NCBI GenBank assembly: GCA_943788815.1 | Contig: CALSRS010000001.1 | Span: 1,487,501-1,551,500 of the forward strand | From: an uncultured Gammaproteobacteria bacterium | Lineage (GTDB): Bacteria; Pseudomonadota; Gammaproteobacteria; Eutrophobiales; Eutrophobiaceae | Direction: 5' to 3' | DNA length: 64,000 bases | Part shown: positions 2,693 through 62,471 of the stretch, in pieces | Layout of the letters: each line of letters opens with the position of its first letter | Position numbering within the stretch: position 1 is the stretch's first letter | Position numbers and translations under genes: made by a program | The notes under the pieces: model-generated | Told to the model about the DNA's origin: nothing | Database searches by the model: none | Seen by the model: only the letters and a program-made list of their open reading frames with translations

Positions 2693-4834
2693 CTAAAAAC
2701 TACCGCTAACTGAGAGGTTAATCCTTGCACCGTTATGAAAGGTTTGAACCAGGCTACTATCCACTGCAGTTAGATCTCTCTGGCCAACGTAAAAGGTCCT
2801 TTCCCTGTTTTCATCATAATTGAGGATATTGATCCCTTCCACACGTATTCTGAGACCAAACCATCGAGATGTCTCGGCAAACATATTGAACCACACCCCT
2901 TCTGAACGGATATCCAGTTCATCTACCTTAAATCTAGGTCGCTCCGCCTGTTCACCTACTTCACCACCCCAGGAGAATTGAAGTTCCTTGATATCCTGAC
3001 GGAATTTTATCAAGTAAGACCAGTTGTTTTCATTGGCAAAGGAAAAACCGGGATCCAGACCACCTACCCCTGAAAGTACACGCTTTTCACCAGTGACCGG
3101 ATCTGTCACGGTCGAATCTTGCAACCTGAATCTGGCATCCAGGCGTGCGCCTTTAAGACCAGTCCACTCAAGGGGAATTGTTGCCTCGAAATCTGCGCCC
3201 CAACGCCTGCCGTTACCAATATTTCCTGGTGCCTCAAGGGTCGGGCTAAGTGGGAGTAAATCTTCTACGTCATTGATCCAGTCATGAAACAATGACACCG
3301 AAAAAACACCAAGGCCACCAAACCGCCTTTCATGAGTAATCTCCGCCTGCCAGGTTCCCTGTGGCTTCAAGTTTGGATTTCCGCCCGTGACATCATCATC
3401 CCGTTGAGTCACCGCACTGACGAAATCATTAAAATCCAGTTGCGATACGTCCCGGGCAAAACGTAAGCGGGTCTGATTACCCTGCCTGGGTGAATAACTG
3501 ACATTGACATACGGTTTTACAAAAAAGAAATTTCGATCCAGTTCTACGTCCCCGGTTTGAGAAATATCAGACAACTCGGCACCCAGTCCAAGTTCCACAC
3601 TGATTGCGTCCATGGTCCAACTATCACTCAAGACAAAATCACCGCGTACTTCCTTAACTTTACTATCTGAACCCGGGATATCAACTATGCTGACTATCCC
3701 CCCTGCATGTTCGGTCTGTAGTAGTGAGCTATCCAGAGAATTAAATGCACCCTCCACATTCAACTGTACCGAATGGTTCTCCCATCCCGCGTAGGTAAAC
3801 TCCAGCCGGGTAATGGCCTCCAGGGTTTGCTTGTCGATATCATCAACCGTTAATAACTCCATATCACCGTCAGGATTGAAATCCCTTCTGCCATTAGATG
3901 GACCCTGGTCAAGATAATATAAAAGGAATACTCCTTTTCCGATCATATTCTCACTGAGCAGGCGTTCTGCATCCAGCCCAAGAGCAAACGACAGGTTGCG
4001 GCGCTCTGTATCAATTACAGTAGTACTGGTCTGACCACCAACAGGAGTGACTGTCCGCTCAAGTAACTCGTCCCTAACAACGGCACTCAACTTGGTATTG
4101 AGTGTCACATAGTTCTCACCGATGTAAGTTGAACCGTTAAGATACGTATTGACATCGAAGCCATCAAAACCCGGGCCACCATCATCGTCAAAACGCGACT
4201 CTGTCAGGTTACCGTTTGCATCAAAGATGTTTTCTTGACCACCATCACCGAAATTGCTGTACCTGGCATCGGCACCAATGTTGTATTCAATGTCACCAAT
4301 ACGATCAATCATCGAAATACTTCCACCGGGGGCCAATCCATGCCCGAATGTTTGTCTGGTGAATGCCTCCCAACGTACTGTTGCCGGGATATCTTGCCGC
4401 AGGATGATATTGGCGACGACAGTCTGCCCCTGCAGGTCGATACCACGGACCTGACCACGGATGAGTTCAATGTACTCTACACTGGCCGCCGGGATTCGAG
4501 TCAGTATGGCTGATGGTGAATCCTGCTTGGCACTGGGGCGGCGATCATTAATGAATATGTTACCCAGCGAAGCGCCAAAACCTCTCCTGCCACCTTCCTG
4601 TTGAGCGTTCAGGCAACTGAGACAATCGCTGATAACAAAACCTGGTATCTGCTTGACCATGTCCAGGGCATTATTGGGATTATATTGCTGAAAAAAAGCT
4701 GCCGGATAATTGATGATTTCCTCTGAGGATGTTGCCTCTTCTGCGCCTCTTTGTGCACCAGCAGTTGATCTCTGTTGTGCGATTGCGCTGGTCTGGAGAC
4801 CAAGTAAGACTAAAAATATAATCCTGTATTTCAT
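2693..4834 (-). CDS. TonB-dependent outer-membrane receptor
   Basis: The protein has 713 residues with a signal peptide ending at AIAQ. A plug domain at about 40-150 includes NALDMVKQIPGFVISD and the characteristic FINDRRPSAK and ELIRGQVRGIDLQG strands. A beta-barrel follows with repeated aromatic/alternating strands, ending in the outer-membrane terminal phenylalanine (NLSVSGSF). Such receptors import large or scarce substrates using TonB energy. The plug contains an unusual DCLSCLN motif. The neighbouring hydrolase and amidohydrolases suggest an organic substrate and not a siderophore, but this is inference. The receptor subfamily is uncertain. Confidence 0.85.
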   Translation of the reverse strand: MKYRIIFLVLLGLQTSAIAQQRSTAGAQRGAEEATSSEEIINYPAAFFQQYNPNNALDMVKQIPGFVISDCLSCLNAQQEGGRRGFGASLGNIFINDRRPSAKQDSPSAILTRIPAASVEYIELIRGQVRGIDLQGQTVVANIILRQDIPATVRWEAFTRQTFGHGLAPGGSISMIDRIGDIEYNIGADARYSNFGDGGQENIFDANGNLTESRFDDDGGPGFDGFDVNTYLNGSTYIGENYVTLNTKLSAVVRDELLERTVTPVGGQTSTTVIDTERRNLSFALGLDAERLLSENMIGKGVFLLYYLDQGPSNGRRDFNPDGDMELLTVDDIDKQTLEAITRLEFTYAGWENHSVQLNVEGAFNSLDSSLLQTEHAGGIVSIVDIPGSDSKVKEVRGDFVLSDSWTMDAISVELGLGAELSDISQTGDVELDRNFFFVKPYVNVSYSPRQGNQTRLRFARDVSQLDFNDFVSAVTQRDDDVTGGNPNLKPQGTWQAEITHERRFGGLGVFSVSLFHDWINDVEDLLPLSPTLEAPGNIGNGRRWGADFEATIPLEWTGLKGARLDARFRLQDSTVTDPVTGEKRVLSGVGGLDPGFSFANENNWSYLIKFRQDIKELQFSWGGEVGEQAERPRFKVDELDIRSEGVWFNMFAETSRWFGLRIRVEGINILNYDENRERTFYVGQRDLTAVDSSLVQTFHNGARINLSVSGSF

Positions 4835-5149: not shown

Positions 5150-5773
5150 GTGAAACAGGATAAATTGGCCAGCGGTACTAACTCCGCGGCAGCAGCGGAA
5201 ACAGAGAGCGACCAGCCTGCTGGTTATTACCATAGTAAAAAAGACCGAATTTTTGTTCGAGCCATCCAGGGCGCCTACAATATGACTGAAGAACTGGACC
5301 GTCTTCGTGCCATGCCTCGGGTCCGTAAAGCCAAAGACATCAAGTTTGTGGATGGACCTCAGGCCTATAGCCGCCACTACGTAGAACCTAAAGACGGGAT
5401 AACCCAAACATTTCATTTACATCTGGAAGAATATGGACCGGGTGGACAATCGCAAAAACACGGGCATGTAAACGAAGCCGCATTTTATATCCTTGACGGC
5501 GTTGGTTATGAGATTCATGACGGAATAAAATATGACTGGAAGGCTGGTGATGTGGCTATCGTCCATAACAACTGTGTCCATCAGCACTTCAATGCCAGTG
5601 ATACAGAACCAGCACGTGCATTGGTCATTAAGACCAAGCCCATGTTCATGTTTATGAACATGCTGTTTCAGAAAACGGTTATTCCAAGGAAAACTGAGGC
5701 TGCCCCAGGAGGAGAAAATTTCGATGCCAGAGAAGAAGAAGACGATTTTAACCATCCAGAGGGAGGATATTAA
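5150..5773 (+). CDS. Cupin-domain protein (gentisate dioxygenase-like half)
   Basis: The protein has 207 residues and a GTG start with AGAGG upstream. One cupin barrel spans about residues 100-185. Motif 1 is GGQSQKHGHVNEAAFYILDG, with HxH and E as metal ligands. Motif 2 is GDVAIVHNNCVHQHFN, with the third histidine. This is the layout of metal-dependent ring-cleaving cupins and related binding proteins. The next gene, 2 bp downstream, encodes a second, distantly similar cupin, and both resemble the two halves of the bicupin at 36735. They are probably co-translated and may form a heterodimer replacing one bicupin chain. Enzymatic activity is not proven by the motifs alone. Confidence 0.75.
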   Translation: MKQDKLASGTNSAAAAETESDQPAGYYHSKKDRIFVRAIQGAYNMTEELDRLRAMPRVRKAKDIKFVDGPQAYSRHYVEPKDGITQTFHLHLEEYGPGGQSQKHGHVNEAAFYILDGVGYEIHDGIKYDWKAGDVAIVHNNCVHQHFNASDTEPARALVIKTKPMFMFMNMLFQKTVIPRKTEAAPGGENFDAREEEDDFNHPEGGY

Positions 5774-5775
5774 TC

Positions 5776-6375
5776 ATGGCCTGGGATGAATCTTCAGTCT
5801 GGATAACAGGCGAAATCAATGATCCGCTTTATCAGAACATGCTTGATGATGCCAGCAGTGCACCTGAACGCAATGCAAAGCGGAATAAAGTTGTTACAGC
5901 GGAAGAGATGCCATGGGAGATGTCTCGTCAAGGCCTGTTAAAACACCTGCTTAACGAACAGATGAATACCCGTATGGAAACGGTTGATGCGTATATGCAA
6001 ATCATACCTCCCGGCAGCCATTCGGGAAAACATCGCCATCTCGCGGAAGAGTGTCTGTATGTTCTTGAAGGACATGGTTACGACCTCCATCAAGACTGCG
6101 ATATTGAAATTACCGATGAGTATTTCTGGAAACCACAAGAAGAAATAAAAAGGTTTGAATGGGAAGCCGGTGACATCATCTATGTACCACCCAATACCAT
6201 ACACCAGCACTTTAATGGTGACTCGGATAGACCTGCCCGATTGATATCATCGACTAACCGTATTTTTAAACACTCCGGTCTCAATGATCTCGAGCAAATA
6301 GAGGATGCGCCTGAATATAAACCAGACATGAAGTTAACGCCTGAACTGGTTCGTACCTTTCTCCGTGGAGAATAG
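5776..6375 (+). CDS. Cupin-domain protein, partner of preceding cupin
   Basis: The protein has 199 residues. The cupin barrel has motif 1 GSHSGKHRHLAEECLYVLEG (HxH plus E) and motif 2 GDIIYVPPNTIHQHFN (third His), with an insertion of about 25 residues between the two motifs. The start lies 2 bp after the stop of the previous cupin, and GAGGGAGG overlaps that gene's end as ribosome-binding site, so the pair forms one transcript. All four canonical metal ligands are present, so a metal-dependent dioxygenase or isomerase role is plausible. The downstream DMT exporter may move the substrate or product. Confidence 0.75.
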   Translation: MAWDESSVWITGEINDPLYQNMLDDASSAPERNAKRNKVVTAEEMPWEMSRQGLLKHLLNEQMNTRMETVDAYMQIIPPGSHSGKHRHLAEECLYVLEGHGYDLHQDCDIEITDEYFWKPQEEIKRFEWEAGDIIYVPPNTIHQHFNGDSDRPARLISSTNRIFKHSGLNDLEQIEDAPEYKPDMKLTPELVRTFLRGE

Positions 6376-6424: not shown

Positions 6425-7396
6425 ATGCTGGGAGCCCTCTTAGCGCTTGCCTCAGCAGCTACATTCGGCCTGAATAATGCGGCTGTGAGGCGCGGCGTAC
6501 TAACGGCAACAGTGTTACAGGGAATGGCAATAACAGTCCCCATGGGACTGCCTTTGTTCTTGCTTGCATGTCTATTATTTGGTGGCTTCCACGCACTTAG
6601 TGAATTCTCAACATCCCAATGGTGGTGGATGGCCAGTGCCGGGATAGTCCATTTTATCATCGGCAGGTACAGCAATTACCGTTCCATACGCGCCATGGGC
6701 GCAAACCTCTCCAGCCCGATACAACAGCTCAGCGTTCCTGTCTCAATCATACTCGCGATGATCTTTTTAAATGAGGTGATAACCCCGGTGCGAATCCTGG
6801 GTTTCATACTCGTGATGATAGGTCCTGCCATTATGTTGAAAAGAAAAAAAGGTGCCGGGACACAAAAGTCAAAATCCGGCTTTGAACCACAATATGCTGA
6901 AGGTTTTCTCTGGGGGGGCGTAAGTGCCGTTGCCTATGGTGCCAGCCCCTTATTTATCATGATGGGGCTGGAGTCTGATGGCACGATGGTTGATAGTATC
7001 GCCGGAGGATTAATATCTTATTCCTCAGCTACACTGGTAATTATCGTCCTTATCCTGGTCCTGGGTGGTCGTAAATACATGACTGGTATGGGTGAAACTG
7101 CCCCTAAATGGTTTGCCCTTTCCGGCTTTATTGTTTTCTTTTCACAAATCTTCCGCTACATGTCACTGGCGATTGCACCAATAACGGTGGTTGTCCCCAT
7201 ACAAAGACTATCACCTGTATTTCGGGTCATTTTTGGATGGTTAATCAATCGTGATCATGAGTTTTTTGGTTTCTGGGTGTTATTTGGCATCTTCCTTTCC
7301 ATGTTTGGTGCCATTTTACTGGCTATGAGCACCGATATCGTAATTGCTATATTACCGTCGAGCTGGGCAAGCTTCCTACAGCTAAGTTGGCCATAA
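6425..7396 (+). CDS. EamA/DMT-family transporter
   Basis: The protein has 323 residues and about ten hydrophobic segments in two EamA repeats. The first repeat (about 1-140) starts with LGALLALASAATFGLNNAAVR and ends with FILVMIGPAIMLKRKK. A charged linker follows (about 140-158), and the second repeat is at about 160-310. The family exports small metabolites across the inner membrane. It starts 49 bp after the second cupin and has no clear ribosome-binding site, so it may be translated from the cupin transcript. The substrate is unknown. Confidence 0.8.
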   Translation: MLGALLALASAATFGLNNAAVRRGVLTATVLQGMAITVPMGLPLFLLACLLFGGFHALSEFSTSQWWWMASAGIVHFIIGRYSNYRSIRAMGANLSSPIQQLSVPVSIILAMIFLNEVITPVRILGFILVMIGPAIMLKRKKGAGTQKSKSGFEPQYAEGFLWGGVSAVAYGASPLFIMMGLESDGTMVDSIAGGLISYSSATLVIIVLILVLGGRKYMTGMGETAPKWFALSGFIVFFSQIFRYMSLAIAPITVVVPIQRLSPVFRVIFGWLINRDHEFFGFWVLFGIFLSMFGAILLAMSTDIVIAILPSSWASFLQLSWP

Positions 7397-7458: not shown

Positions 7459-7523
7459 CTTTTTTCCGGTTAAATTCCGAAATTATGAAGTACTTGATAT
7501 CTTTAAAATGGAAGGGGGAACAC

Positions 7524-9503
7524 ATGTTTGAATCCAAACATTATCAGTTATTCGTAAATCGTTTGTTTTTTACGATATTTACATTTTCGATCTGCATCAC
7601 CACTCAGGCAGGCGTTGCGCCATATGCAGACAGTATCATATTAAATGCTAAGGTTATTACCGCTGACAATGATAATCCAGATCTCATCACCATGGCAGAG
7701 GCAGTTGCCATTCGTGGAGACAGGATTATGGCAGTGGGTAGTAATGAAGATATCCGGCAACTAATTGCAGATTGGACAGAAGTTGTGGATGCCAAAGGCT
7801 ACTCTGTCATACCAGGTATGATTGATTCTCATAATCATCTTTATGAACATACTCTTGATTTTCCCTGGTCACTCAAGCAGATCCCTGAAATGCTGGAAGT
7901 ACGTATTGGTGCCAAGGGTGAGGGCGAAGGGATGACCGTTGAAGAATTTACCAATATAGTTCTGGGCGCCATCAAAGCAAGGGCTGCCCAGTTACCAGAT
8001 GGGCATTGGATACGGGTAAATGCTCGTCCTCCCGATGTTGCCGTGAAGGCCTTTGGTACCACCATCACCAGAGATATCCTGGATGAAATTACCCCTAATC
8101 ATCCATCTTACGTCACTACCCGTGGTGGTTCGGTAGTTAACAGTAAGACTATCGAGGCCTTTGAATCATTTTATGGTTCAAGAATGCCAGAAGATTACTG
8201 GCTGGTCTCAAGAGAGCTTGGAACCTCAGGTGAATATAACGACTTTGACCGCTGTGCCAAGATTGACATTATAAACACTCAATTTGGTACTTTTGACCGA
8301 TATATCAATGCCTATATGCAATCCATGCAAGTCAACGCACAAATTGGTGTCACCAGCTACAAAACACATCTACAGTGCGAGGGTGGATTCAGTGCTTCAT
8401 CTCACCTCGATCGTAATGACCTGATGCCGATACGTCTGGCATGGGGACATCGATGGTGGCAACCTTTTTCCTCCAATATTCATGAGATGTATAGACGCAT
8501 TGGTGACTTCACAGGTTACGGATCAGATTTTCTCTGGAGTATAGGCAGCAGTGTCGGTGGTATAGATGCCGGTGGTGTAGGCTGGTGCAGCACCATTCCT
8601 GCCAGTGATTCAATAAAAAGTCGGGAACAATGTCCACCTCTCATTAATGACATTGAAATTGATGATATTACCGAGACGAATATTGTTCCAAACCGTGGAC
8701 GACGACTTGAACACCTGGACACTCTTGCCGAACTAGCTGGTGAAGGCAGGCTGTCTGGTATACCTGGCTGGCACGTTGCAGGTGACGGTGCCGTGGATGT
8801 ACTTCAAAAAACCTATAGAAAATATATGTCTGATGACCGCATTAGTAACCTGAGAATACAGGCAGACCATTGTTTTGGAATTCGCCCTGACCAAATCCAG
8901 ATGGCCGCGCGTCTGGGGCAGACATTTGCATGTAATTTCGATACCGAGAACACTCGCATCATTGAGAAAGATTACGGTGAAGAATACCTGGCATGGAATG
9001 CCCCTGTCGCGAGTATGTTAAAGGCGGGTGTAAATACCGTACTTGGTTCCTTTGGCACCTATGGCCGTGAGCGTTATTCACCTTTTGAAGATGGCGTAAA
9101 TTGGCTGACACGTGAAGATGATGAAGGCGTTCCCTGGGGCTTAAAAGAAGAAGCAGTGCCTGACAGACTGACGCTACTATTGATGATGACCCGTTTTGGT
9201 GGCCATCCCCTGTGGAGAGAAAACGCACTAGGTTCTATTGAACCAGGAAAACTCGCTGACGTTGTGATTTTAAACGGGGATTACATGGCCGGTCCTGTGG
9301 CAGACCTGGAAAAACTCACTTCCATCTTCACCATGGTTGGCGGAAAAATCAACTACGAAGATCCATTACTTCGTGGCAATACCCTGCGATTTAACAGCGA
9401 CACTATTGATTGGACTTTTGATATGCAAACCCCAACCAAGCTGTGGCGCTGGTCAGAAACCCCCGTAGCCCCACCATTTCTGAATGGTGCAAACGGATTT
9501 TAA
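7524..9503 (+). CDS. Secreted amidohydrolase (YtcJ-like)
   Basis: I start this at ATG 7524 and not at the track's 7485, because GAAGGGGG sits 5 bp upstream and the resulting 659 residues match the 658-residue paralog at 9922. A signal peptide ends near TTQAG. Amidohydrolase-3 features follow: an N-terminal beta-sandwich strand DSIILNAKVITADN, the HxH motif SHNHLYEH, later histidines in GWHVAGDGAV and ADHCFG, and the C-terminal LGSIEPGKLADVVILNGDY typical of urease-type metal hydrolases. It is a zinc- or iron-dependent hydrolase of unknown substrate. A strong terminator follows, so it probably ends its transcript. Confidence 0.85.
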   Translation: MFESKHYQLFVNRLFFTIFTFSICITTQAGVAPYADSIILNAKVITADNDNPDLITMAEAVAIRGDRIMAVGSNEDIRQLIADWTEVVDAKGYSVIPGMIDSHNHLYEHTLDFPWSLKQIPEMLEVRIGAKGEGEGMTVEEFTNIVLGAIKARAAQLPDGHWIRVNARPPDVAVKAFGTTITRDILDEITPNHPSYVTTRGGSVVNSKTIEAFESFYGSRMPEDYWLVSRELGTSGEYNDFDRCAKIDIINTQFGTFDRYINAYMQSMQVNAQIGVTSYKTHLQCEGGFSASSHLDRNDLMPIRLAWGHRWWQPFSSNIHEMYRRIGDFTGYGSDFLWSIGSSVGGIDAGGVGWCSTIPASDSIKSREQCPPLINDIEIDDITETNIVPNRGRRLEHLDTLAELAGEGRLSGIPGWHVAGDGAVDVLQKTYRKYMSDDRISNLRIQADHCFGIRPDQIQMAARLGQTFACNFDTENTRIIEKDYGEEYLAWNAPVASMLKAGVNTVLGSFGTYGRERYSPFEDGVNWLTREDDEGVPWGLKEEAVPDRLTLLLMMTRFGGHPLWRENALGSIEPGKLADVVILNGDYMAGPVADLEKLTSIFTMVGGKINYEDPLLRGNTLRFNSDTIDWTFDMQTPTKLWRWSETPVAPPFLNGANGF

Positions 9504-9921: not shown

Positions 9922-11898
9922 ATGCAATACATCAATAAAATTCTAATTACTATTTTCACTCTTACGATATTTGGTCATAGCTATGCAGGAGTAGCGCCTT
10001 ACGCGGATACTGTTATTATCAACGGCGAGGTTATTACTGCTGATTCTAATGATCCCGAGCAAGTTACCATTGCACAGGCTATCGCAATTCAAGGAGATAA
10101 GATCCTGGCGGTAGGCAGTAATGCTGAAATCCAGGCCCTCGTTGCTGACTGGACTGAAGTGATAGACGCCAAAGGAAATACCGTCACACCTGGCTACATC
10201 GATACCCACAATCATATCTATGAAACCTCTACGGGTTTCCCCTGGGTTGTAAATTCAATTCCGGATTTACTGGAAGTCAGGGTCGGTGGCAGCAACCCCG
10301 AAGAGATGGCAACGAATGCCCTCAATGCAATAGGCGCCAGGGCCAGACAAATACCAGAAGGAAAGTGGATACGGATAAATATGCGGCCTCCTCAGGTTGC
10401 GGTACCCATCCTGATAAACAATATTATCAACCGTGACATACTCGATAATATCTCTCCTAATCATCCCGCCTATGTTACTACTCGTGGTGGAACAATACTA
10501 AATAGCAAGGCGCAAGAAGCCTTTGCACATCATTATGGAAATCCATTGCCGGATGATTACTGGATGGATGGGGGACCAGAAAGAGGGTGGTCAGGTGAGT
10601 ACACTGACTTCGGACGTTGTTCCAGCCTTGATCTTATAGGCATGCAAGACCAGGAAACTTTCAATAAATATATTCAGGGTTATTTTGAAGTCATGCAGGC
10701 AAACGCACAGATAGGTGTCACCACCTATAAAAGCCATATTCAGTGTGAATCTGGGTTTAGTGCAACCAACCACATGGATCGCAATGACATGATGCCTATC
10801 CGTATGGCATGGGACCATCGATGGCTGCAACCTTTCTCAAACAGTATCAAGGAATCCTATCGACGTATAGGTGACTGGGTAGGGCACGGCTCTGACATGT
10901 TCTTTAGTACCGGAAGTAGCGTCGGTGGTATTGATGCAGGTGGTGTCGGCTGGTGTACCGCCATGAAGGCCAAGAGTGCAGAAATAAAAGCCCGGGAACA
11001 GTGTCCTCCAGCACCAGAGGGTATTGAATTAAATGCGTGGCAAGGAAGGACGCTTGAAGGTGGTGGTATAGACGGAGGAATTACAGCAAACCGAGGTAGA
11101 CGCACAGAGCATCTTGTAACCTTAGCTGAATTGGCAGCCGAAGGACGCATAAGTAACATACCTGGCTGGCATTCATCAGGAGATGGCGCAACTGAAATAA
11201 TGATGAAGACTTATCGTTCGTACATGAGTGATGAGCGGATCCGTATGCTGCGTACCACTAGCGATCATTGTCACTCAGTAACACCGGAGGAAATAGAAAT
11301 AGCCTCACGGACAGGTCATACCTTTTCTTGTGATGCCACAGAAGTACCCACACAGATCATTAAGGAAGGTTATGGTGAAGAATATTTAACCTGGAATGCA
11401 CCTCTTGCCAGTATGATAAATGCGGGTGTCAATGCCGTCATCAGTCAGTTTGGGATTGAAAGTGGATTGCGAGATTCCCCATTTGAGGATGGCGTCATGT
11501 GGCTGACGCGTAAAATAAATGGCGAAACCTGGGGTGTGCCTGAAGAAGCTATACCCGACAAGATGTCACTGATGTTGATGATGACCCGGCGCGCTGCCTA
11601 TCCCATTTGGAAAGAAAACGCATTGGGATCCATAGAGCCCGGAAAGTTTGCAGACATCGTAATATTAAATGGCAACTACATGGACACATCCAATGAAGAA
11701 CTTGATCAACTGACTTCTATCCTGACCTTGATAAGCGGAAAGGCTGCATATGAAGCACCTGAGTTACGCGGTAATACTTTTCGATTCAATACTGATAGTG
11801 CTGATTGGACAATTAACATGGTAACGCCAACATCAATATGGCGATGGACAGATGTGCCCGCAGTCCCGCCGTTTCTCAATGGTGCAAATGGTTATTAA
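9922..11898 (+). CDS. Secreted amidohydrolase (YtcJ-like), paralog
   Basis: The protein has 658 residues. AAGGAGGGGG lies just before the ATG and a signal peptide ends at SYAG. It shares the full architecture of the 7524 gene product: VIINGEVITADSND, the HxH motif THNHIYE, GWHSSGDGATEI, SDHCHSV, and LGSIEPGKFADIVILNGNY at the C-terminal beta domain. Both proteins end in PPFLNGANG. The two genes and the remnant between them look like tandem duplicates, and the first 206 residues of the gene at 1-619 are even closer to this copy. The likely role is periplasmic metal-dependent hydrolysis, possibly of slightly different substrates per copy. Confidence 0.85.
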   Translation: MQYINKILITIFTLTIFGHSYAGVAPYADTVIINGEVITADSNDPEQVTIAQAIAIQGDKILAVGSNAEIQALVADWTEVIDAKGNTVTPGYIDTHNHIYETSTGFPWVVNSIPDLLEVRVGGSNPEEMATNALNAIGARARQIPEGKWIRINMRPPQVAVPILINNIINRDILDNISPNHPAYVTTRGGTILNSKAQEAFAHHYGNPLPDDYWMDGGPERGWSGEYTDFGRCSSLDLIGMQDQETFNKYIQGYFEVMQANAQIGVTTYKSHIQCESGFSATNHMDRNDMMPIRMAWDHRWLQPFSNSIKESYRRIGDWVGHGSDMFFSTGSSVGGIDAGGVGWCTAMKAKSAEIKAREQCPPAPEGIELNAWQGRTLEGGGIDGGITANRGRRTEHLVTLAELAAEGRISNIPGWHSSGDGATEIMMKTYRSYMSDERIRMLRTTSDHCHSVTPEEIEIASRTGHTFSCDATEVPTQIIKEGYGEEYLTWNAPLASMINAGVNAVISQFGIESGLRDSPFEDGVMWLTRKINGETWGVPEEAIPDKMSLMLMMTRRAAYPIWKENALGSIEPGKFADIVILNGNYMDTSNEELDQLTSILTLISGKAAYEAPELRGNTFRFNTDSADWTINMVTPTSIWRWTDVPAVPPFLNGANGY

Positions 11899-11912: not shown

Positions 11913-11943
11913 TCACACCCGGTACAACCGGGTGTGATTTTTT
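11913..11943 (+). terminator. Rho-independent terminator between convergent genes
   Basis: The stem TCACACCCGG / CCGGGTGTGA has loop TACAA and a run of seven T. It ends the amidohydrolase transcript and overlaps the last codons of the converging minus-strand VWA gene, so the stem may also stop that transcript. Confidence 0.9.
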
Positions 11944-12901
11944 AAATCATTAGACGGGCAAAAATTAAGGATATCGTCAAAAAAAGACCTAGTAGTATTG
12001 CCGCTGTCTTATCAATATCCCCTATACCAGAATCGGCACCACCAATAAATTGTAACATCCTGTTGACTGAATCTGGCGATTCAGCCCTGACGTATAAACC
12101 CCTATGTGAATCGATTTGTGATAGCTGCATCATAGTATCGACATTAGGGACCGTAAATAACTTGCCACTCATGGGAGTGAAGTGCAAAAATTCACCGAAC
12201 TCACCATACTCTGGGACACCTTCATTTTCCCCAAGCAAACCTGTCTGCAGGGTGACCATGTCAAATGTACCCGCCTCTACTTTTTCTACGGCATATTCCA
12301 GATAAGAATAAGGCAAGGTATCTTCACCATCAGAGATAAGAATGCCAATCTTATGGCTTTTATCTCTTAAGTTCTGGGGTAATGTATTAAAAGAACCTGC
12401 CAGTGAATTGATTGCAGCCTCAATACTTGTGCCGGTGCTGGTGAATAATTCTGGCGAGATCACAAACTCCAGCATTTCTGTAATTTGTGCAATATTACTT
12501 TCCCACCCAAGTATAACCTGAGCTTTTTCTGTAAATCCAATCATGGAAACAATGATATTTTCCTGACGATCTTCCAGCTCCTGGAAGAGTTCAAACAACC
12601 TCTTTCGACCGCGTTCAAATCGTGTTTCATTTTCTTCATTTAAAGATGGCTCTGGAATCGCAAGCATGCTGGGTGAAAGATCAAATGCGATTGAAATTGC
12701 AATGGGGTCTTCATTCAGACTGTAACTATAGTTGGGTCGATCATTTAATGTTGACCAGATAATTAAACCCAATCCAGCTATAACAAGACCCAGGACATAC
12801 TTCGAAGGTTGATTGTAATTTAGATCTTCTGACCTATAGGTTAATACTAGCCAGTATATAACTATCGCCAAACCTGCAACGATTGTAGCTCCAACAATCA
12901 C
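11942..12901 (-). CDS. VWA-domain membrane protein, MxaL-like
   Basis: The protein has 319 residues. Two N-terminal membrane segments (about 3-20 and 35-52) are followed by a von Willebrand A domain with the MIDAS metal motif FDLSPSM near residue 75, the supporting threonine region TSTGTSIE and LISDGED. A C-terminal membrane helix lies at about 298-317. It is the last gene of a six-gene operon, 15 bp after the preceding gene. In methylotrophs the order mxaRSACKL ends with such a VWA protein, needed for Ca-loaded methanol dehydrogenase; generic BatA proteins look similar. Family assignment rests on gene order as much as on sequence. Confidence 0.65.
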   Translation of the reverse strand: MIVGATIVAGLAIVIYWLVLTYRSEDLNYNQPSKYVLGLVIAGLGLIIWSTLNDRPNYSYSLNEDPIAISIAFDLSPSMLAIPEPSLNEENETRFERGRKRLFELFQELEDRQENIIVSMIGFTEKAQVILGWESNIAQITEMLEFVISPELFTSTGTSIEAAINSLAGSFNTLPQNLRDKSHKIGILISDGEDTLPYSYLEYAVEKVEAGTFDMVTLQTGLLGENEGVPEYGEFGEFLHFTPMSGKLFTVPNVDTMMQLSQIDSHRGLYVRAESPDSVNRMLQFIGGADSGIGDIDKTAAILLGLFLTISLIFARLMI

Positions 12902-12916
12902 AACCTTACCTCTTTC

Positions 12917-13834
12917 CTAGAAATTTGGTGGCGCAGATGAAATAACTCCTCTTTCTCCCTCTGCTTCACCAGAGCCATCCCCGGCGACCGGGGCATTCAC
13001 TTCCTGTGAACCTCTATCCAGAGACAACAAGTATTCAAGAAAGAGTTTAGGCTGACCATAGTCAGGATTTCTTCTCAGGCTTTCTTTTAGTGCCTGTATT
13101 GCTTGTTGGTAATAATCAAACTGGCCTTCGGATTGAAATGCATCAAATAACATTCTTGCCTGGGCATAATGGACTACTGCCAGAAACTCATCATCTACCT
13201 TCATATTTTCAAGGTCATTAAATAAAGCATTAGCTGAGCTTCTGTCGCCAACCAATGATAGATACACACCATGATTAAACATTAAGTTCTTCTCTAATGA
13301 ACTACCTCTTTTAAGAAATGCAGCCGTGGGCTGCAGATACAAAGGAGGACTGTCAAGCCTGTCAATTATGGGTTGATACTGATCTGAATATAATATTTTT
13401 AAATCAGATACACCTTTTTTTAATAAGGCCAGGGATTCTTCACCCAGAGGACCCTCTGGTGCATTCAAAGCATCAGTTATTCGAACGAATTCCTCTATTG
13501 TTGCAATCTTATCTTCCAGAAATTCTCCTATAAACCTTTCATATATCTGCACAATCTCTTTTTTGTAATTTTCATCTTGAGATATACGTCTAAGATCACC
13601 AAGATCATTCAATACTTTATTTGTAAAACCATTTGTTGCAACCTCATCAACCAGGTGATCAAGACTCTGATTTGCTGAGTCCAATTGTGGATTGAAATAT
13701 GAATAAAATCCGTAAGCCTGAAACCCGGCAATGATAGTTATTATTCCCAGGGCTCTGAGTAAGCTTGGGGATTTCTCAACAATACCACTACGAAATGAAC
13801 CTGCATCATTCCCCGTGTTATCCGAACTGTTCAT
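12917..13834 (-). CDS. Membrane-anchored helical protein, MxaK-like
   Basis: The protein has 305 residues. A cytoplasmic tail is followed by one membrane segment at about 30-47 (LGIITIIAGFQAYGFYSYF). A largely helical region includes a TPR-like stretch at about 170-265 (FNHGVYLSLVGDRSSANALF, then YYQQAIQALKESLRRNPDYG). An acidic/Gly-rich tail ends it. It overlaps the upstream VWA gene by 4 bp, so the two are translationally coupled. In position and topology it matches MxaK of methanol oxidation clusters but is longer than I expect for MxaK. No enzymatic motif is seen. Confidence 0.55.
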   Translation of the reverse strand: MNSSDNTGNDAGSFRSGIVEKSPSLLRALGIITIIAGFQAYGFYSYFNPQLDSANQSLDHLVDEVATNGFTNKVLNDLGDLRRISQDENYKKEIVQIYERFIGEFLEDKIATIEEFVRITDALNAPEGPLGEESLALLKKGVSDLKILYSDQYQPIIDRLDSPPLYLQPTAAFLKRGSSLEKNLMFNHGVYLSLVGDRSSANALFNDLENMKVDDEFLAVVHYAQARMLFDAFQSEGQFDYYQQAIQALKESLRRNPDYGQPKLFLEYLLSLDRGSQEVNAPVAGDGSGEAEGERGVISSAPPNF

Positions 13835-14880
13835 AAATTGCCTCCCTTAAAATATTTCCGGCCTGTACTCGGATGAAAAAACGTTCCCACTAGAAACAAC
13901 CACAGGATGATTAGAACCTGTGCAGACTGAAGAAACGGCCTGGAAAGGTCTATCCTCTCACGTCTGGTTTCTTCATAACTGTATCCTTCCAGCCTACTTA
14001 TGTCTCTTAGTGTATTTTCCAGATTGCTGGCATCTAGATTTTCTATCGTAACCACATTGCCAACTGTTCTTGCAAAACTTAGAAATTTTTCTACTTCTTC
14101 ATTGGACATATCATTTTCATCTGTTGTAATCCAAAGTAAATAAAATGAAATGCCCATGTTCGCAAGTCTTGTTAATTGCTGTTCAACATCTTTTGTGTAC
14201 GCAGCTTCAGCATCTGTCAACAAAATAACCGCTTTTTTGTTTTGTTGTGGATATCGATCAAACAAGTTCAGACCTGTTTCCATTGCCAAGGCTATGTCCG
14301 TACCCCAATTAACATATTCATCCATAGAAGCAAGTTGCTCCACAACAAAATCAATATTTGCTGTCGGTGCAGACATAGTAAATGCATTATCATTAAAAAA
14401 TATCATGCCTACTCTGTCCTGGGCTTTCCTTTGAGACAGAAAACTCAGCAAGCTTTCTCTCGCCAACTCATACCTTGCCAACATTGGTAGAGAATTCGGG
14501 TCATCTACCGCCGTAGAAAAAGTTCCAGCACGTCGCTCAAACATCAGCTCCAGATCTTCTCTATTCACATTAGTATCATGTCTCATTGAACGTGAGGTAT
14601 CAAAAATCACAAGGAAATCCCTGGCACGCTGATCTACAGTAATGCTTCTTATTACTGTCGGCTTCATCAACACAATAATTATTAGACCGAGGATCAGTAA
14701 AGTAATAATGACCGGCAACTTGTCCAAAATACCTTTATTAGTAACTGTGTTACTTATCAACATCATGTCTGGAAAATGTGCGGGCTTTTTATAAAACCAC
14801 AAACTGATGAAAACAATAGTTGCAATAACACCTAGCCATAATGGCCATATTCGATCAAAGGATATACTTTCCCAATCCAC
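13831..14880 (-). CDS. VWA-domain membrane protein, MxaC/BatA-like
   Basis: The protein has 349 residues. Two N-terminal membrane segments (about 12-30 and 55-72) precede a VWA domain with MIDAS motif FDTSRSM near residue 92, GTDIAL and LLTDAEAAY. One C-terminal membrane segment lies near 325-340. The fold displays a divalent metal used for protein binding. It is the fourth gene of the operon, 13 bp after the MxaA-like gene and overlapping the MxaK-like gene. Together with the MoxR ATPase it likely forms a periplasm-facing chaperone complex that helps metal insertion or maturation of an exported enzyme. Confidence 0.7.
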   Translation of the reverse strand: MDWESISFDRIWPLWLGVIATIVFISLWFYKKPAHFPDMMLISNTVTNKGILDKLPVIITLLILGLIIIVLMKPTVIRSITVDQRARDFLVIFDTSRSMRHDTNVNREDLELMFERRAGTFSTAVDDPNSLPMLARYELARESLLSFLSQRKAQDRVGMIFFNDNAFTMSAPTANIDFVVEQLASMDEYVNWGTDIALAMETGLNLFDRYPQQNKKAVILLTDAEAAYTKDVEQQLTRLANMGISFYLLWITTDENDMSNEEVEKFLSFARTVGNVVTIENLDASNLENTLRDISRLEGYSYEETRRERIDLSRPFLQSAQVLIILWLFLVGTFFHPSTGRKYFKGGNL

Positions 14881-14893
14881 CAGCCTGATTCTC

Positions 14894-15904
14894 CTAGCCT
14901 CGAGAATTAACGGAAGCTGAAGTTATAGCTGAAAATCGGCTAACATATTCCTGACGTTTTTCTTTATTGATTCCTTCCTGGTTCAGCACATCAATAAAAA
15001 ATTCACGAAATTTCTGGTTCTGATTACCTGCTTTTTGGTCGCTGATCCATTCATAAGGGTTTTCGCCCAGCTCATCCAGGCTGTACCAGGTTGCACTCCG
15101 TCTAAGCAGGTCGGAATACTCCTCGTCTGAAATATTATCACTGGCAGAACTAATCCGATCCAGAATACTCTCCCAGCGTGTATTCATACGGTTTCTGGAT
15201 TCAGTTCTTCGCATCCCATTGCTGTTTGTCAGTAATACTGGAAAGAAACTCACCAAAAGAATCAGGCCACCAGCAAATATAGGCCACATACTCGCTGCTT
15301 CATCTTCAGGCACGCCCATAGACGTTGGATAACCACTGTTCCCCAGGTAAGCAGAAAGTTCGTCCAGACCACCTTCACCCCTGATATCCAGGGCCTGCAT
15401 TACGACGATATGAGATGGAATTGTATTAAACCTGACTGATTTGTTATTAACTACGTTGCCACCACCATCAATTATCTGGTATCCAACAGAAAAAACTGGC
15501 AGCTCATACAACTTATTACCTCTGCAGCTGGTTAACTCTCCTGGACAATCCAACACCTGGAAGTTAAAAGTACTGCGAACAATTGATTTCCCATCAGCCA
15601 GGTTTTCCTGAGTTACCTCAGGTCTATCAATTAAACTAATTCCTTTTTCTGAGCCCCAGCTCCTTTCAAATAATTGTTCATCCAGATTTTCAACAATCAC
15701 TTCGCTTGCAAGAAATTCAGCTTCTATGGTCAGCGATATACTGTCTCCAAGATTAACTGGTTTTTTTCCTGCCTCTGCAATTCCTGAACGAACTATAATA
15801 TAGTCATCCTCATAAACTTCGGGGACATATTCGTAAGCAATCAGGTTTATGGAAAATAACATCAATATAGATAAAACAATTTTCTGTTTTGTAAAAGTCG
15901 CCAT
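14894..15904 (-). CDS. Signal peptide plus single-TM protein, MxaA-like
   Basis: The protein has 336 residues. A signal peptide (about 1-23) precedes a periplasmic beta-rich domain to about 205, in which two cysteines in VLDCPGELTSCRGN could form a disulfide. A membrane helix lies at about 209-226 (MWPIFAGGLILLVSFFPVLL), with a cytoplasmic helical tail after it. The architecture and position between the DUF58 and first VWA genes match MxaA, reported to be needed for calcium insertion into methanol dehydrogenase. DUF4381 proteins of Bat operons occupy the same place but are about half this length. It starts 2 bp after the DUF58 stop. Confidence 0.6.
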   Translation of the reverse strand: MATFTKQKIVLSILMLFSINLIAYEYVPEVYEDDYIIVRSGIAEAGKKPVNLGDSISLTIEAEFLASEVIVENLDEQLFERSWGSEKGISLIDRPEVTQENLADGKSIVRSTFNFQVLDCPGELTSCRGNKLYELPVFSVGYQIIDGGGNVVNNKSVRFNTIPSHIVVMQALDIRGEGGLDELSAYLGNSGYPTSMGVPEDEAASMWPIFAGGLILLVSFFPVLLTNSNGMRRTESRNRMNTRWESILDRISSASDNISDEEYSDLLRRSATWYSLDELGENPYEWISDQKAGNQNQKFREFFIDVLNQEGINKEKRQEYVSRFSAITSASVNSRG

Positions 15905-15906
15905 AA

Positions 15907-16818
15907 TTAATTTTTCCTACGTCTTCTTATTCTTGCTAATTGTGCTAATTGCGGATAAATGTTTCGTTGATTATTAATAACCATACAATCCATACCAACT
16001 GATCTAAATGTATTCTTTAAGGCCTCTACCCGTTGTTTCTCTTCTAAATTAATTTTTCTTACACGTGACGATGAAAACCAGGTCAGCCTTCTTGTTTGTC
16101 TTTCCGGGTCCCATACCTTCAACATTCCGCCAATCCCAGAACCAACCTCAAAACTTATAATTACCGGTATCAAATTGTGTCGCAAACGGTTTATGACCTG
16201 TTGCAATTTTGCATCGAGGTGAAAATTTTTATTCTGCATAGACACAAAATCCGAAACCAGAAATATTAAATCTGGCACATTTCGACTTACCTTATGCATG
16301 TAGTTTTTCAATACCATTGAAATATCTGTCTCATTGTGCACGACAATATTTGAAAGTGACCCACTTAGTCGATCCATTTGTGTTTTAAGATTTGCAGCTT
16401 TAATCTCGTTATGCAATTCTGAACTGAACAGGATAGTCCTGACCACATCGCCAGCACGCCACAGTGAATAAGTTAATTGCATGATTGCCGCATTTCTTAA
16501 TGAAGATTTAAATGGGATGTCCATTGATGCAGAGGTATCGGCCAGAATTGTTATGGAGGATTGAGCCTCTTCTTCCCACTCTATGACCTGCCTGTCCCCA
16601 GGCGGACTGAATTTATCAATATCTCTGGGATTATCTTCACCTTGCAGGAATTGACGTGTCCGTAGATACCTTAATCCGCTACCTGCTCTCCCCAGTGGGT
16701 GCCGACCTGGTAAAAATTTCAGAGGCGACAACTTTATAGGCATTAACACGCCGAGTGCAAGTAGTGCGTCTCTGTCTATAACAGACGGGTCACGTTTATG
16801 CCGAGGTGTTATATGCAT
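15907..16818 (-). CDS. DUF58 protein, MxaS-like
   Basis: The protein has 303 residues. DUF58 is shown by GRAGSGLRYLRTRQFLQGEDNPRDIDKF followed by a VWA-like core with ILADTSASMDIPF near residue 92 and LIFLVSDFV. There are no membrane segments, so it is probably cytoplasmic. The family always travels with MoxR ATPases. It overlaps the MoxR gene by 23 bp and lies 2 bp from the next gene, indicating tight co-expression. The role is inferred as MoxR partner in the maturation complex. Confidence 0.75.
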   Translation of the reverse strand: MHITPRHKRDPSVIDRDALLALGVLMPIKLSPLKFLPGRHPLGRAGSGLRYLRTRQFLQGEDNPRDIDKFSPPGDRQVIEWEEEAQSSITILADTSASMDIPFKSSLRNAAIMQLTYSLWRAGDVVRTILFSSELHNEIKAANLKTQMDRLSGSLSNIVVHNETDISMVLKNYMHKVSRNVPDLIFLVSDFVSMQNKNFHLDAKLQQVINRLRHNLIPVIISFEVGSGIGGMLKVWDPERQTRRLTWFSSSRVRKINLEEKQRVEALKNTFRSVGMDCMVINNQRNIYPQLAQLARIRRRRKN

Positions 16819-17815
16819 ACCCTCTTTCAGAAAGAATCATATTAATAACATGGGACATATCAACCGGGTAAGTGGTCTCCAGTCTATGGTTAAGTATTGG
16901 TACCGCAGAAGCAAAAACATCGTATGGAACAACGTGTTTTCTTCCATGAAAAAATGCATGGGCACGTAAAAATGGAGGCCAAAAACTGGTTGTCCTTGAG
17001 CTTGCCCCACCAGCAGGACTAATTACTTCTTTACCAAGCCCTGAATTATCGAAAACATCTGAAGGATATGATGGATCACTCCGTCTAGTTGCAACTGTAA
17101 TCGCATTCATCAGGTGAACTATTGAATCTGATATTTCAATTTCGTTCTGGATCATGTCCTGAATTTCAGCAAACTCATAGCGAGAAATAACAGGACTGAT
17201 ATTTTTCAGGTTCTCCTGCAAAGAAGCCTTTGCCTCACGTGCAATCTGGAATTCAATTTCACGAGGTGAGAATGTCCATTCAATCTTTACCATGAACCTT
17301 TGTTTAGCAGCGGCATCCAGTTCCCAGGTACCTTCGTGTGATAAAGGGTTTTGTGTTGCAATAACATGGAACGGTTGAGGTAATTTATGTGAGCTACTCC
17401 CGATAGTAACCTGATGTTCCTGCATGGCTTCCAGTAATGCGGACTGGGTCCTGGGGTCAGTTCTGTTTAATTCATCAAACAAAACGATATTGTTAAATAT
17501 TGGTCCTTTTAAAAGTTCAAATCGATCCGCACCTTCTGATGCAATTTCTGCACCCAGCAAATCTGAAGGCTTCAAGGTAGGTTGACCCGATATCCTGCCT
17601 GCCGACATGCCATCGATCGATGCTGCCAGTGTTGTAGATAAAAGTGTCTTTCCCTCGCCTGGGACTGATTCCAGAAGCACGTGGCCTTTTGCCATTAATG
17701 TAATCACCAGGAGATCAACCCCCGTTTCGTGCCCTTTGACTACCTTTCCAAGGTTATCTCTTAAATCATGGGTTAATTTAACTGCACTATCAAAGTCCAT
17801 ACTATTCTCTCTCAT
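16796..17815 (-). CDS. MoxR-family AAA+ ATPase, MxaR-like
   Basis: The protein has 339 residues. Walker A GEGKTLLS lies near residue 55 after LLESVP, Walker B is FNNIVLFDELNR, with sensor 1 ATQNPL and the MoxR signature EGTWELDAAAKQRFM. The C-terminal lid domain ends the protein. MoxR ATPases act as chaperones with VWA partners, five of which-type genes follow here. A second ATG 15 bp downstream (residue 6) has GAGAGA at good spacing and may be the true start. It is the first gene of the six-gene operon, so the promoter lies in the 500-bp gap upstream. Confidence 0.8.
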   Translation of the reverse strand: MRENSMDFDSAVKLTHDLRDNLGKVVKGHETGVDLLVITLMAKGHVLLESVPGEGKTLLSTTLAASIDGMSAGRISGQPTLKPSDLLGAEIASEGADRFELLKGPIFNNIVLFDELNRTDPRTQSALLEAMQEHQVTIGSSSHKLPQPFHVIATQNPLSHEGTWELDAAAKQRFMVKIEWTFSPREIEFQIAREAKASLQENLKNISPVISRYEFAEIQDMIQNEIEISDSIVHLMNAITVATRRSDPSYPSDVFDNSGLGKEVISPAGGASSRTTSFWPPFLRAHAFFHGRKHVVPYDVFASAVPILNHRLETTYPVDMSHVINMILSERGYAYNTSA

Positions 17816-18338: not shown

Positions 18339-19682
18339 TTAGCTTATGATTATTGGTTCCAGCTTTCTTCTTCCCAACCTTTGTGCGCCATTTTCAGTAA
18401 TTAATACGCCATCTCCGATCTGTGTACTGGGTGTTTCAAGACCTGGTATAGGTACACGAGGCTTAATGGAGAACACCATTCCCGGTTCAATAACCAGATC
18501 ACTATTTTCGTCATCACGTGACCATCCCATCCTGGGCCCATCTCCCAAAGCGCCACCAGTGTGAAACACCACACCTACATAAGGTTTACCACCAACCTTT
18601 GCAATACGCTTGTCGACTTCTTCTTTGTAAAAAAGACTGTAGTCAGCAAATGTCCTGCCCGGTTTTGCCCAGTCAAGCAGTGATTCAAATAATTCCATGT
18701 TATATCGGAAGGTGGATTCCCAATTTGCTGGTTCTGGACGACCAACACACATAGTCTGATTGACCTGCAGGTTATAACCTAATACCTGAGCAGAAAGGGT
18801 CTCACTTAAAATTTGTCCTGATTGAATAATCTCGTTTAGTGGTTTTCCATTTGCGGTATTTCCCTCTGCACCTGCACGAATAGTAATCCTTCCGGGTTGT
18901 TCTCCGGATGCATCCAGATAAGCCTTTGCAATAGCGAACCAAACATCTCTTTGTGGCACGCCAGGCGCCGCTGTCTCCACCGACGCTTTTATTCCCAGCT
19001 CTGCTATCCTGTTGGACAAACGTAATGCCTGAATTTCCTCTGGACCACGGGATAATTTTATCCGCATTAATAGATCCGAGGCTGATTCAAACCTAATCCT
19101 CGGAAATTCCTGCTTCAGGCGATTGATCGTTGTATAACTCGCGCCACCTTCATCGTTTCTTAATGTTCCTGACAGATTTCCGACGCCAATGCGGCCACTG
19201 CTTATCCCTGCTTTTTTAATAGCATTAATAATCAGTTCAGAACGATTGAGCTAACCAATATCAACTTCAATATCACCCTGCATGAATCCTTCTATTTCAT
19301 CGTCTTCATCACCATACCTGTAGATGGCTGTAGGTTTACCGGATTGAGGAAAGACCACCCAGTCAGGACCCGATTCTGTCAGCCACTTCACATCCGCGTT
19401 TCCTTCGGGTCGCATAGGAACTAGCAAGGCATCAAAATCATATCGACTCATCCACTCTCTGCATTTTTTCCAACGTCTGCGCATCTCATTTAGCGAAAAG
19501 CCTTTAGGCATATTGTCTGGCGTTAATTCATCTATCCCTGAAATGTCCAGTGTGCTCCTGGCAACTGATTCTGCGCTGGTCGAATTTGAATAAATAGAAA
19601 GGCCAGTCGAAACTGAAACCGCGGCTGATGAAATTATAAAATCCCGTCTTTTAATATTATGTGAGTCATGGCTAGAAGACAT
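18339..19682 (-). pseudogene. M24 (pita-bread) peptidase-like protein with in-frame TAG
   Basis: The track shows two ORFs (19251-19682 and 18339-19067), but the region between them is open in the same frame; only a TAG at 19251-19253 separates them. The joined product has about 447 residues. It has a twin-arginine signal (KRRDFIIS), a creatinase N-terminal domain and an M24 fold ending HTGGALGDGPRMG, IEPGMVFSIKPRV and GDGVLITENGAQRL. The usual metal ligands look replaced: the second Asp of GYxxD is Gln (GYNLQ), the EP Glu is Lys (IKP) and the last Glu is Gly. It may have been a non-catalytic binding protein before the nonsense mutation. It ends the operon that includes the ABC pair. Confidence 0.8.
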
Positions 19683-60504: not shown

Positions 60505-61343
60505 TTAACCCAGATGGGATGCATGAAACTGCAAATGCCTATCGATAAAGGTTTCTATAAAAAAGTAGCTGTGGTCATACCCTGGGTGACGTTGGATCTG
60601 GATATTACTTTTACTGTTGTTGGTCAGGGCCTCAAGATTTTCCAGTAATAACTGCTCTTTGAGAAATTCATCATCTTCTCCTTGATCAATCAATATTGGT
60701 GATAATTGATTGTTATTTTGATTTGAGAACAACATACATGCGTCATATTCTGACCAACAATCTTCATCCTCTCCCAGGTAATTTCTAAACGCCTTAATTC
60801 CCCATGGACACGAAGATGGGTTTACGATGGGGCTGAAAGCTGAAATAGATTTATAGCTTCCAGGATTTTTCAAGCCAATAGTTAACGCTCCATGCCCACC
60901 CATTGAATGACCGCTGATAGATTGATTACCATTTGCAGGAAAATGTGTATTAATAATTTCTGGCAATTCAAAAACTATATAATCATACATTTTGAAATTT
61001 TCTTCCCACGGTGCCTGAGATGCGTTCAGGTAAAATCCGGCACCCTGCCCCAGGTCATAAGCAGGGTCATCCGCGACACCCTCTCCCCGGGGGCTGGTGT
61101 CAGGTGCTACCAGGATAAGGCCAAGATCCGAAGCCATACGTCTTGCGCCCGCTTTTTGCATGAAATTCTCGTCTGTACATGTCAAACCTGACAACCAGTA
61201 AAGCACCGGTAATTTTTTATCCTCGACTAGTGCAGGCAGATATATGGAGAAAGTCATATCGCAATGATTTGCGATGGATAAATGCTGGTAACGACAATGC
61301 CAGCCGTTAAAGGATCTGTTGCGGCTTATCAGTTCTGGTTTCA

Positions 61344-61344
<1 letters not shown>
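60505..61344 (-). CDS. frmB: S-formylglutathione hydrolase
   Basis: The protein has 279 residues, the usual length. Signatures are LSGLTCTDENFMQKAGA, GEGVADDPAYDLGQGAGFYLNA, and the catalytic Ser in SISGHSMGGHGAL, Asp in LIDQGEDDEFL and His in PGYDHSYFF. It hydrolyses S-formylglutathione to formate and glutathione in the cytoplasm, the second step of glutathione-dependent formaldehyde oxidation. Its start overlaps the frmA stop by 1 bp (TAATG). The name fghA is also used. Confidence 0.93.

Positions 61345-62471
<1,127 letters not shown>

Follow-up and report, generated by a model that had tools for sequence, protein, structure and literature searches.

What does a set of Mxa-like maturation genes serve when no methanol dehydrogenase is encoded beside it? 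The question is raised by a compact six-gene operon, R-S-A-C-K-L, on the minus strand at 11942-17815 of a 64,000-nucleotide stretch (the window) of contig CALSRS010000001.1 from an uncultured gammaproteobacterium. A reading of the bare letters (the sequence-only reading) had described an mxaRSACKL-type operon without a methanol dehydrogenase nearby, and had allowed that the complex might serve another enzyme. We propose that the operon's products form a MoxR-VWA maturation module with the exported Amidohydro_3 enzymes encoded alongside it as clients, rather than a methanol dehydrogenase, an assignment that we consider likely although well short of secure. The module thus probably matures an enzyme class other than the known one.

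The operon itself is as first described: open reading frames (ORFs), Pfam domains and conserved gene order all agree. All six ORFs are in place and nearly abut, overlapping or separated by only a few bases. Because all five genomes of this genus, and outgroup metagenome-assembled genomes (MAGs) too, share the R-S-A-C-K-L order, the arrangement is not due to chance. Walker A (PGEGKT) and Walker B (IVLFDE) of R are both intact, and the metal ion-dependent adhesion site (MIDAS, DxSxS) reads DTSAS in S (alignment of 10), DTSRS in C and DLSPS in L, invariant in each; across 14-16 loci the Walker and MIDAS motifs are intact and invariant. A MoxR protein with intact Walker motifs therefore stands beside MIDAS-bearing VWA proteins, as in MoxR-VWA modules generally. 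A and K gave no convincing match in a Pfam search. A comprises a signal peptide, a periplasmic beta domain containing a conserved Cys pair (C120 and C127 in the alignment), a transmembrane segment (~208-226) and a helical cytoplasmic tail. Its predicted structure is of moderate confidence (pLDDT, the predicted local distance difference test, 68), and a fold search with this model returned generic beta-sandwich matches only, none below E 0.001.

Amidohydrolase genes beside seven module types

Seven paralogous module types occur in this gammaproteobacterial genus, with outgroup loci for types 1 and 2; the window operon is type 1. The second full six-gene operon in the genome (type 2, C1:1381229-1387194) encodes an R that is 67% identical to the R of the window. 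Types 3 and 5 are laid out as R-S-A-C-L and type 4 as K-L-R-S-A-C, and types 6 and 7 consist of A-C-L alone. An orphan R-S pair in the same genome (L027) is closest to R and S of type 5 and may serve the type-6 A-C-L in trans. Each genome of the genus (five of five) has types 1 and 2, which are missing from the other 48 genomes of the order, and a GTDB contig scan for them added only a few Proteobacteria MAGs. A28-type proteins were not found beyond the bacterium's own genome among 399 genomes of the phylum; therefore, generality beyond the genus rests on a handful of MAGs bearing types 1 and 2.

In the window, the gene for the amidohydrolase (AH) AHw2 ends 43 bp from L, convergent with the operon, and a second exported Amidohydro_3 gene, AHw1, lies beyond it. 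An AHw2 orthologue stands beside the same operon type at four other loci (L063, L075, L076 and L077), and a type-1 AH adjoins the type-1 operon in diverged outgroup MAGs as well, where these AHs are 63-65% identical. For 28 A-C-L-containing modules a neighbouring AH would have been visible, and 26 of them carry an AH gene no more than 2.8 kb away. For 12 of the 26, this gene immediately precedes the module in the same orientation, the layout expected if both were transcribed together (all ≤2.8 kb, 10 within ~0.4 kb and one overlapping), an arrangement found in types 3, 5, 6 and 7 and at two type-4 loci. All six modules of the bacterium's own genome lie within 1.9 kb of an AH, compared to a mean of 0.79 by circular shifts (p ~2e-4), where modules were moved around contigs with AH clustering retained and where the A-C-L module definition had been set after the loci were seen, so that the p value does not come from a test fixed beforehand. 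Nine MoxR loci are present in this genome, including a separate classical Bat-like operon (L031); four other MoxR loci, the classical Bat operon among them, have no AH in the fetched stretches, the nearest lying 27-160 kb away. The alternative that the complex serves another enzyme fits this recurrence of AHs with every paralogous module type, although the sequence-only reading passed over the adjoining exported amidohydrolases.

The module-linked AHs have signal peptides, as judged by inspection, and with few exceptions they keep HxH and two later His ligands, while the beta-8 GSD Asp is mostly gone. Likewise, AHw2 has HxH (H96, H98), H417 and H449, and its usual beta-8 GSD Asp is replaced. 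A PDB search with AHw2 gave weak, N-terminal amidohydrolase matches only. The Amidohydro_3 expansion in this 3.2-Mb genome is marked.

Several observations weigh against amidohydrolases as clients. With the nine MoxR loci all taken into account, AH proximity is weakly enriched (p 0.07; 4 loci within 10 kb), and the genome holds ~50 Amidohydro_3 matches, so that adjacency is not rare. Module loci of related genomes are not statistically independent. Two type-1 copies (L065 and L066, in genomes G306 and G308) have no adjoining AH, related AHs lying elsewhere in these genomes. The type-2 AH of the bacterium's own genome has DxD instead of HxH, a poor fit to metal loading, and the structure model of AHw2 is unusable (mean pLDDT 48). 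The client role of the AHs is a prediction from genome context only.

Neighbouring genes and other candidate functions

The window operon forms one end of a larger gene cluster. Just left of the window lie a type-4 module, AH32, more AHs, a HupE/UreJ-family permease, a DPxTG protein and another AH; the order then continues through the TonB receptor, cupins, EamA transporter, AHw1 and AHw2 to the operon (Table 1). Adjoining Rieske, cupin, PanB-like and transporter genes suggest a catabolic setting.

Table 1. Coordinates of the operon, its neighbours and recurring small proteins (window positions unless a locus or contig is named)
Feature	Coordinates	Strand	Description
R	16796-17815	minus	MoxR-family AAA+ ATPase, first in operon; Pfam AAA_3, 152 bits
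S	15907-16818	minus	DUF58/VWA-like (Pfam DUF58); cytoplasmic partner; 23 bp overlap with R
A	14894-15904	minus	Membrane protein in MxaA/BatD-like position
C	13831-14880	minus	Membrane-anchored VWA protein (Pfam VWA); two N-terminal and one C-terminal transmembrane segments
K	12917-13834	minus	305 aa, MxaK position; one N-terminal stretch of moderate hydrophobicity
L	11942-12901	minus	Second membrane VWA protein (Pfam VWA)
AHw2	9922-11898	plus	Exported Amidohydro_3 protein, predicted client
AHw1	7485-9503	plus	Second exported Amidohydro_3 protein, predicted client
EamA-family transporter	6425-7396	plus	Recurring neighbour of operon types 1 and 2
Two cupin genes	5150-5773, 5776-6375	plus	Recurring neighbours of operon types 1 and 2
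TonB-dependent outer-membrane receptor	2693-4834	minus	Same gene cluster
DPxTG protein, left of window	L035:7628-8050 = C1:1485628-1486050		
DPxTG proteins, other loci	L028:17930, L029:12591, L075:838, L077:6307, L119:15989, L120:5464, L121:4723		
DPxTG proteins, further loci	L122:14705, L123:11415, L124:5810, L126:14535, L129:12702		
~250-aa exported protein	L035:5637-6398, L075:9267-10067, L077:14919-15671, L120:7084, L123:13143, L126:12438		

Among the neighbours, proteins of the DPxTG family (115-152 aa) have a signal peptide, the DPxTG motif, a low-complexity linker and a C-terminal transmembrane segment; they adjoin AH genes at most module loci, and Pfam gave no convincing match. A HupE/UreJ_2-family permease homologue with a DUF6702-like N-terminus (L035:6371-7450, L123:12061-13173) is flanked by an AH gene and the type-4 operon; metal supply is a possible role for it. 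In outgroup type-1 operons, an exported protein of ~250 aa without a Pfam match takes the seventh position, after L; in the genus it is encoded near the type-4 operon. A homologue of EutA, the reactivating factor of ethanolamine ammonia-lyase, adjoins outgroup type-2 operons (357 bits, L084:3367-5001; also L077, L081 and L083). On the other side of the operon, an M24 peptidase gene (18339-19682) is split, with one ORF at 18339-19067 and another at 19251-19682. In a relative it is a single intact ORF of 447 aa (L063:2912-4255), and two relatives lack it. The split copy is either a pseudogene or a sequence error.

These neighbours could themselves supply the client, either the cupins, a Rieske oxygenase or the small DPxTG membrane protein, the AHs merely sharing the pathway. 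We regard this as unlikely, even though the cupins and the EamA transporter recur at types 1 and 2, including the two loci that lack an AH, and most AH loci also have the DPxTG protein. In types 3, 5, 6 and 7 it is the AH that lies immediately upstream on the same strand, in stretches from which Rieske genes are absent; moreover, cupins and Rieske enzymes are generally predicted to be cytoplasmic, whereas C, L and A would face the periplasm according to their inferred topology.

The abundance of AHs could alternatively mean that adjacency is incidental and that the operon has a Bat-type role in stress or in the envelope, lacking any dedicated client. The AH genes are indeed numerous and clustered, and C has a weak similarity to BatA (17.5 bits, cut-off 25.9), although the BatA and BatB models remain far under cut-off. 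However, the circular-shift result (p ~2e-4), the recurrence of the association in seven module types, and the separate classical Bat-like operon L031 with no AH nearby make an operon of this kind improbable, and we rank it slightly below a client among the other neighbours.

Relation to Mxa proteins and to methanol oxidation

For comparison with true Mxa proteins, the mxa loci of eight genomes with mxaI were fetched and their Mxa proteins were collected by tblastn. In BLAST searches, R alone resembles its counterpart (~30%). Profile comparison (hhalign) matched R to MxaR at 99.7%, S to MxaS at 97.3% and C to MxaC at 96.3%. L reached MxaL at 4.8% and A reached MxaA at 1.7%, from shallow alignments in which a missing signal is not proof. 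The sequence-only reading had proposed to compare A and K by profile with MxaA and MxaK against the Bat families: of the six Mxa proteins, K came closest to MxaK (12.3%, 103 columns, again from a shallow alignment), and A matched neither MxaA nor DUF4381. A remote relationship of K to MxaK is thus only suggestive.

Modules of the same genome bridge some of these distances. The K of type 4 matches true MxaK at 95.3%, and the L of the window matches the L of type 3, 5, 6 and 7 modules at 98.6%, the latter family reaching true MxaL at 96.2%. The A families of types 1/2, 3/5/6/7 and 4 match one another at 85-93%, and by profile comparison A, C and L are homologous across module types. Given these intermediates, we conclude that the operon is of the same broad kind as mxaRSACKL. 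The earlier statement that gene order and topology fit the Mxa maturation genes thus stands for the order R-S-A-C-K-L and for the R, S and C profiles, but not for homology of A, K and L, which correspond to MxaA, MxaK and MxaL by position and topology, their homology not being demonstrable from the sequences. In a MoxR tree, R of the window clusters with its type-2 paralogue, apart from a separate supported MxaR clade, with long branches flagged.

The absence of a methanol dehydrogenase was borne out. No mxaF, mxaI, mxaJ or mxaG lies beside the operon, and the window has no match to a pyrroloquinoline quinone (PQQ) domain. A search of the genome for the dehydrogenase and for pqq genes found 11 PQQ dehydrogenase-like proteins, none of them in the window and all scoring under the TIGR03074 and TIGR03075 cut-offs (methanol/ethanol family); mxaI, PqqB and PqqC had no match in this genome, where three mxaI genomes were positive for PqqC in the same search. 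On these grounds, a methanol dehydrogenase operon was rejected as the main explanation, and the link to methanol drawn by the sequence-only reading is unsupported. The frmAB pair that it placed about 43 kb away is real (60505-62456) and encodes S-(hydroxymethyl)glutathione dehydrogenase and S-formylglutathione hydrolase of the ordinary glutathione-dependent formaldehyde pathway; no tie to the operon was found. Since PQQ dehydrogenase-like proteins occur despite the lack of PqqB and PqqC, this bacterium may import PQQ. The least probable alternative is a PQQ alcohol dehydrogenase client whose gene lies elsewhere in the genome, since the cases in its favor, namely the 11 candidates, of which one lies ~1.6 kb from the type-4 operon (L032), another in the type-3 neighbourhood of a relative (L127), and a remnant in L122, are set against the lack of any such gene near window-type, type 2, 5, 6 or 7 modules, besides the missing mxaI, PqqB and PqqC and the sub-threshold scores.

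Proposed mechanism and known systems

MoxR-type ATPases and their VWA partners act in client remodelling and metal insertion (PMC13036017), and activation of methanol dehydrogenase requires MoxR (PMC3893208). By analogy with such metal-insertion machines, the ATPase R and its DUF58 partner S would work on the cytoplasmic side as the motor for A, C, K and L. Of these, A and the two membrane VWA proteins (C and L) would pass an ATP-driven conformational change to the periplasmic face, where the MIDAS-bearing VWA domains and the beta domains would act on an exported, partly folded amidohydrolase and help with metal loading or opening of its active site. Metal loading of the AHs is inferred to be the likeliest step. 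MxaACKL are thought to act likewise for Ca2+ in MxaF, and NorQD does so for iron in nitric oxide reductase. More tentatively, at not quite even chances in our estimate, the modules may make up a family dedicated to maturing exported amidohydrolases, with several paralogous MoxR/DUF58/A/C/(K)/L modules in one genus, each with its own AH set and often a DPxTG protein, that load metal into enzymes whose active-site Asp is replaced.

Clients are known for few of the widespread MoxR-VWA modules, and what MxaA, MxaC, MxaK and MxaL each do is poorly defined. To our knowledge, exported amidohydrolases are not counted among the clients of such systems, and literature searches found no report of a MoxR-VWA module paired with an exported amidohydrolase. 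Seven paralogous types in one genus, nearly all AH-linked, provide a natural set for probing client specificity.

Compared to MxaRSACKL, encoded within mxaFJGIRSACKLD, the window operon has six genes in the same order, with MoxR, DUF58 and two membrane VWA proteins, and differs in having no mxaF/I/J/G beside it, an A that matches MxaA at 1.7%, an R outside the MxaR clade, and exported amidohydrolases as neighbours. With the Bat operon (MoxR-DUF58-DUF4381-BatA-BatB, as in L031), it has MoxR, DUF58 and VWA membrane proteins in common, and its A resembles BatD/DUF4381 in topology (beta domain, transmembrane segment, tail), although Pfam gave no DUF4381 match for A of the window and a sub-threshold match for A of type 4; it differs by the K-like gene beside two VWA genes and by its AH neighbours. 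NorQ-NorD, CbbQ-CbbO and CoxD-type systems likewise combine a MoxR-like ATPase with a VWA protein for client remodelling or metal loading (PMC13036017, PMC3893208). They have one VWA partner and act on nitric oxide reductase, Rubisco or CO dehydrogenase, whereas the window operon encodes membrane-anchored VWA partners, with exported amidohydrolases as predicted clients.

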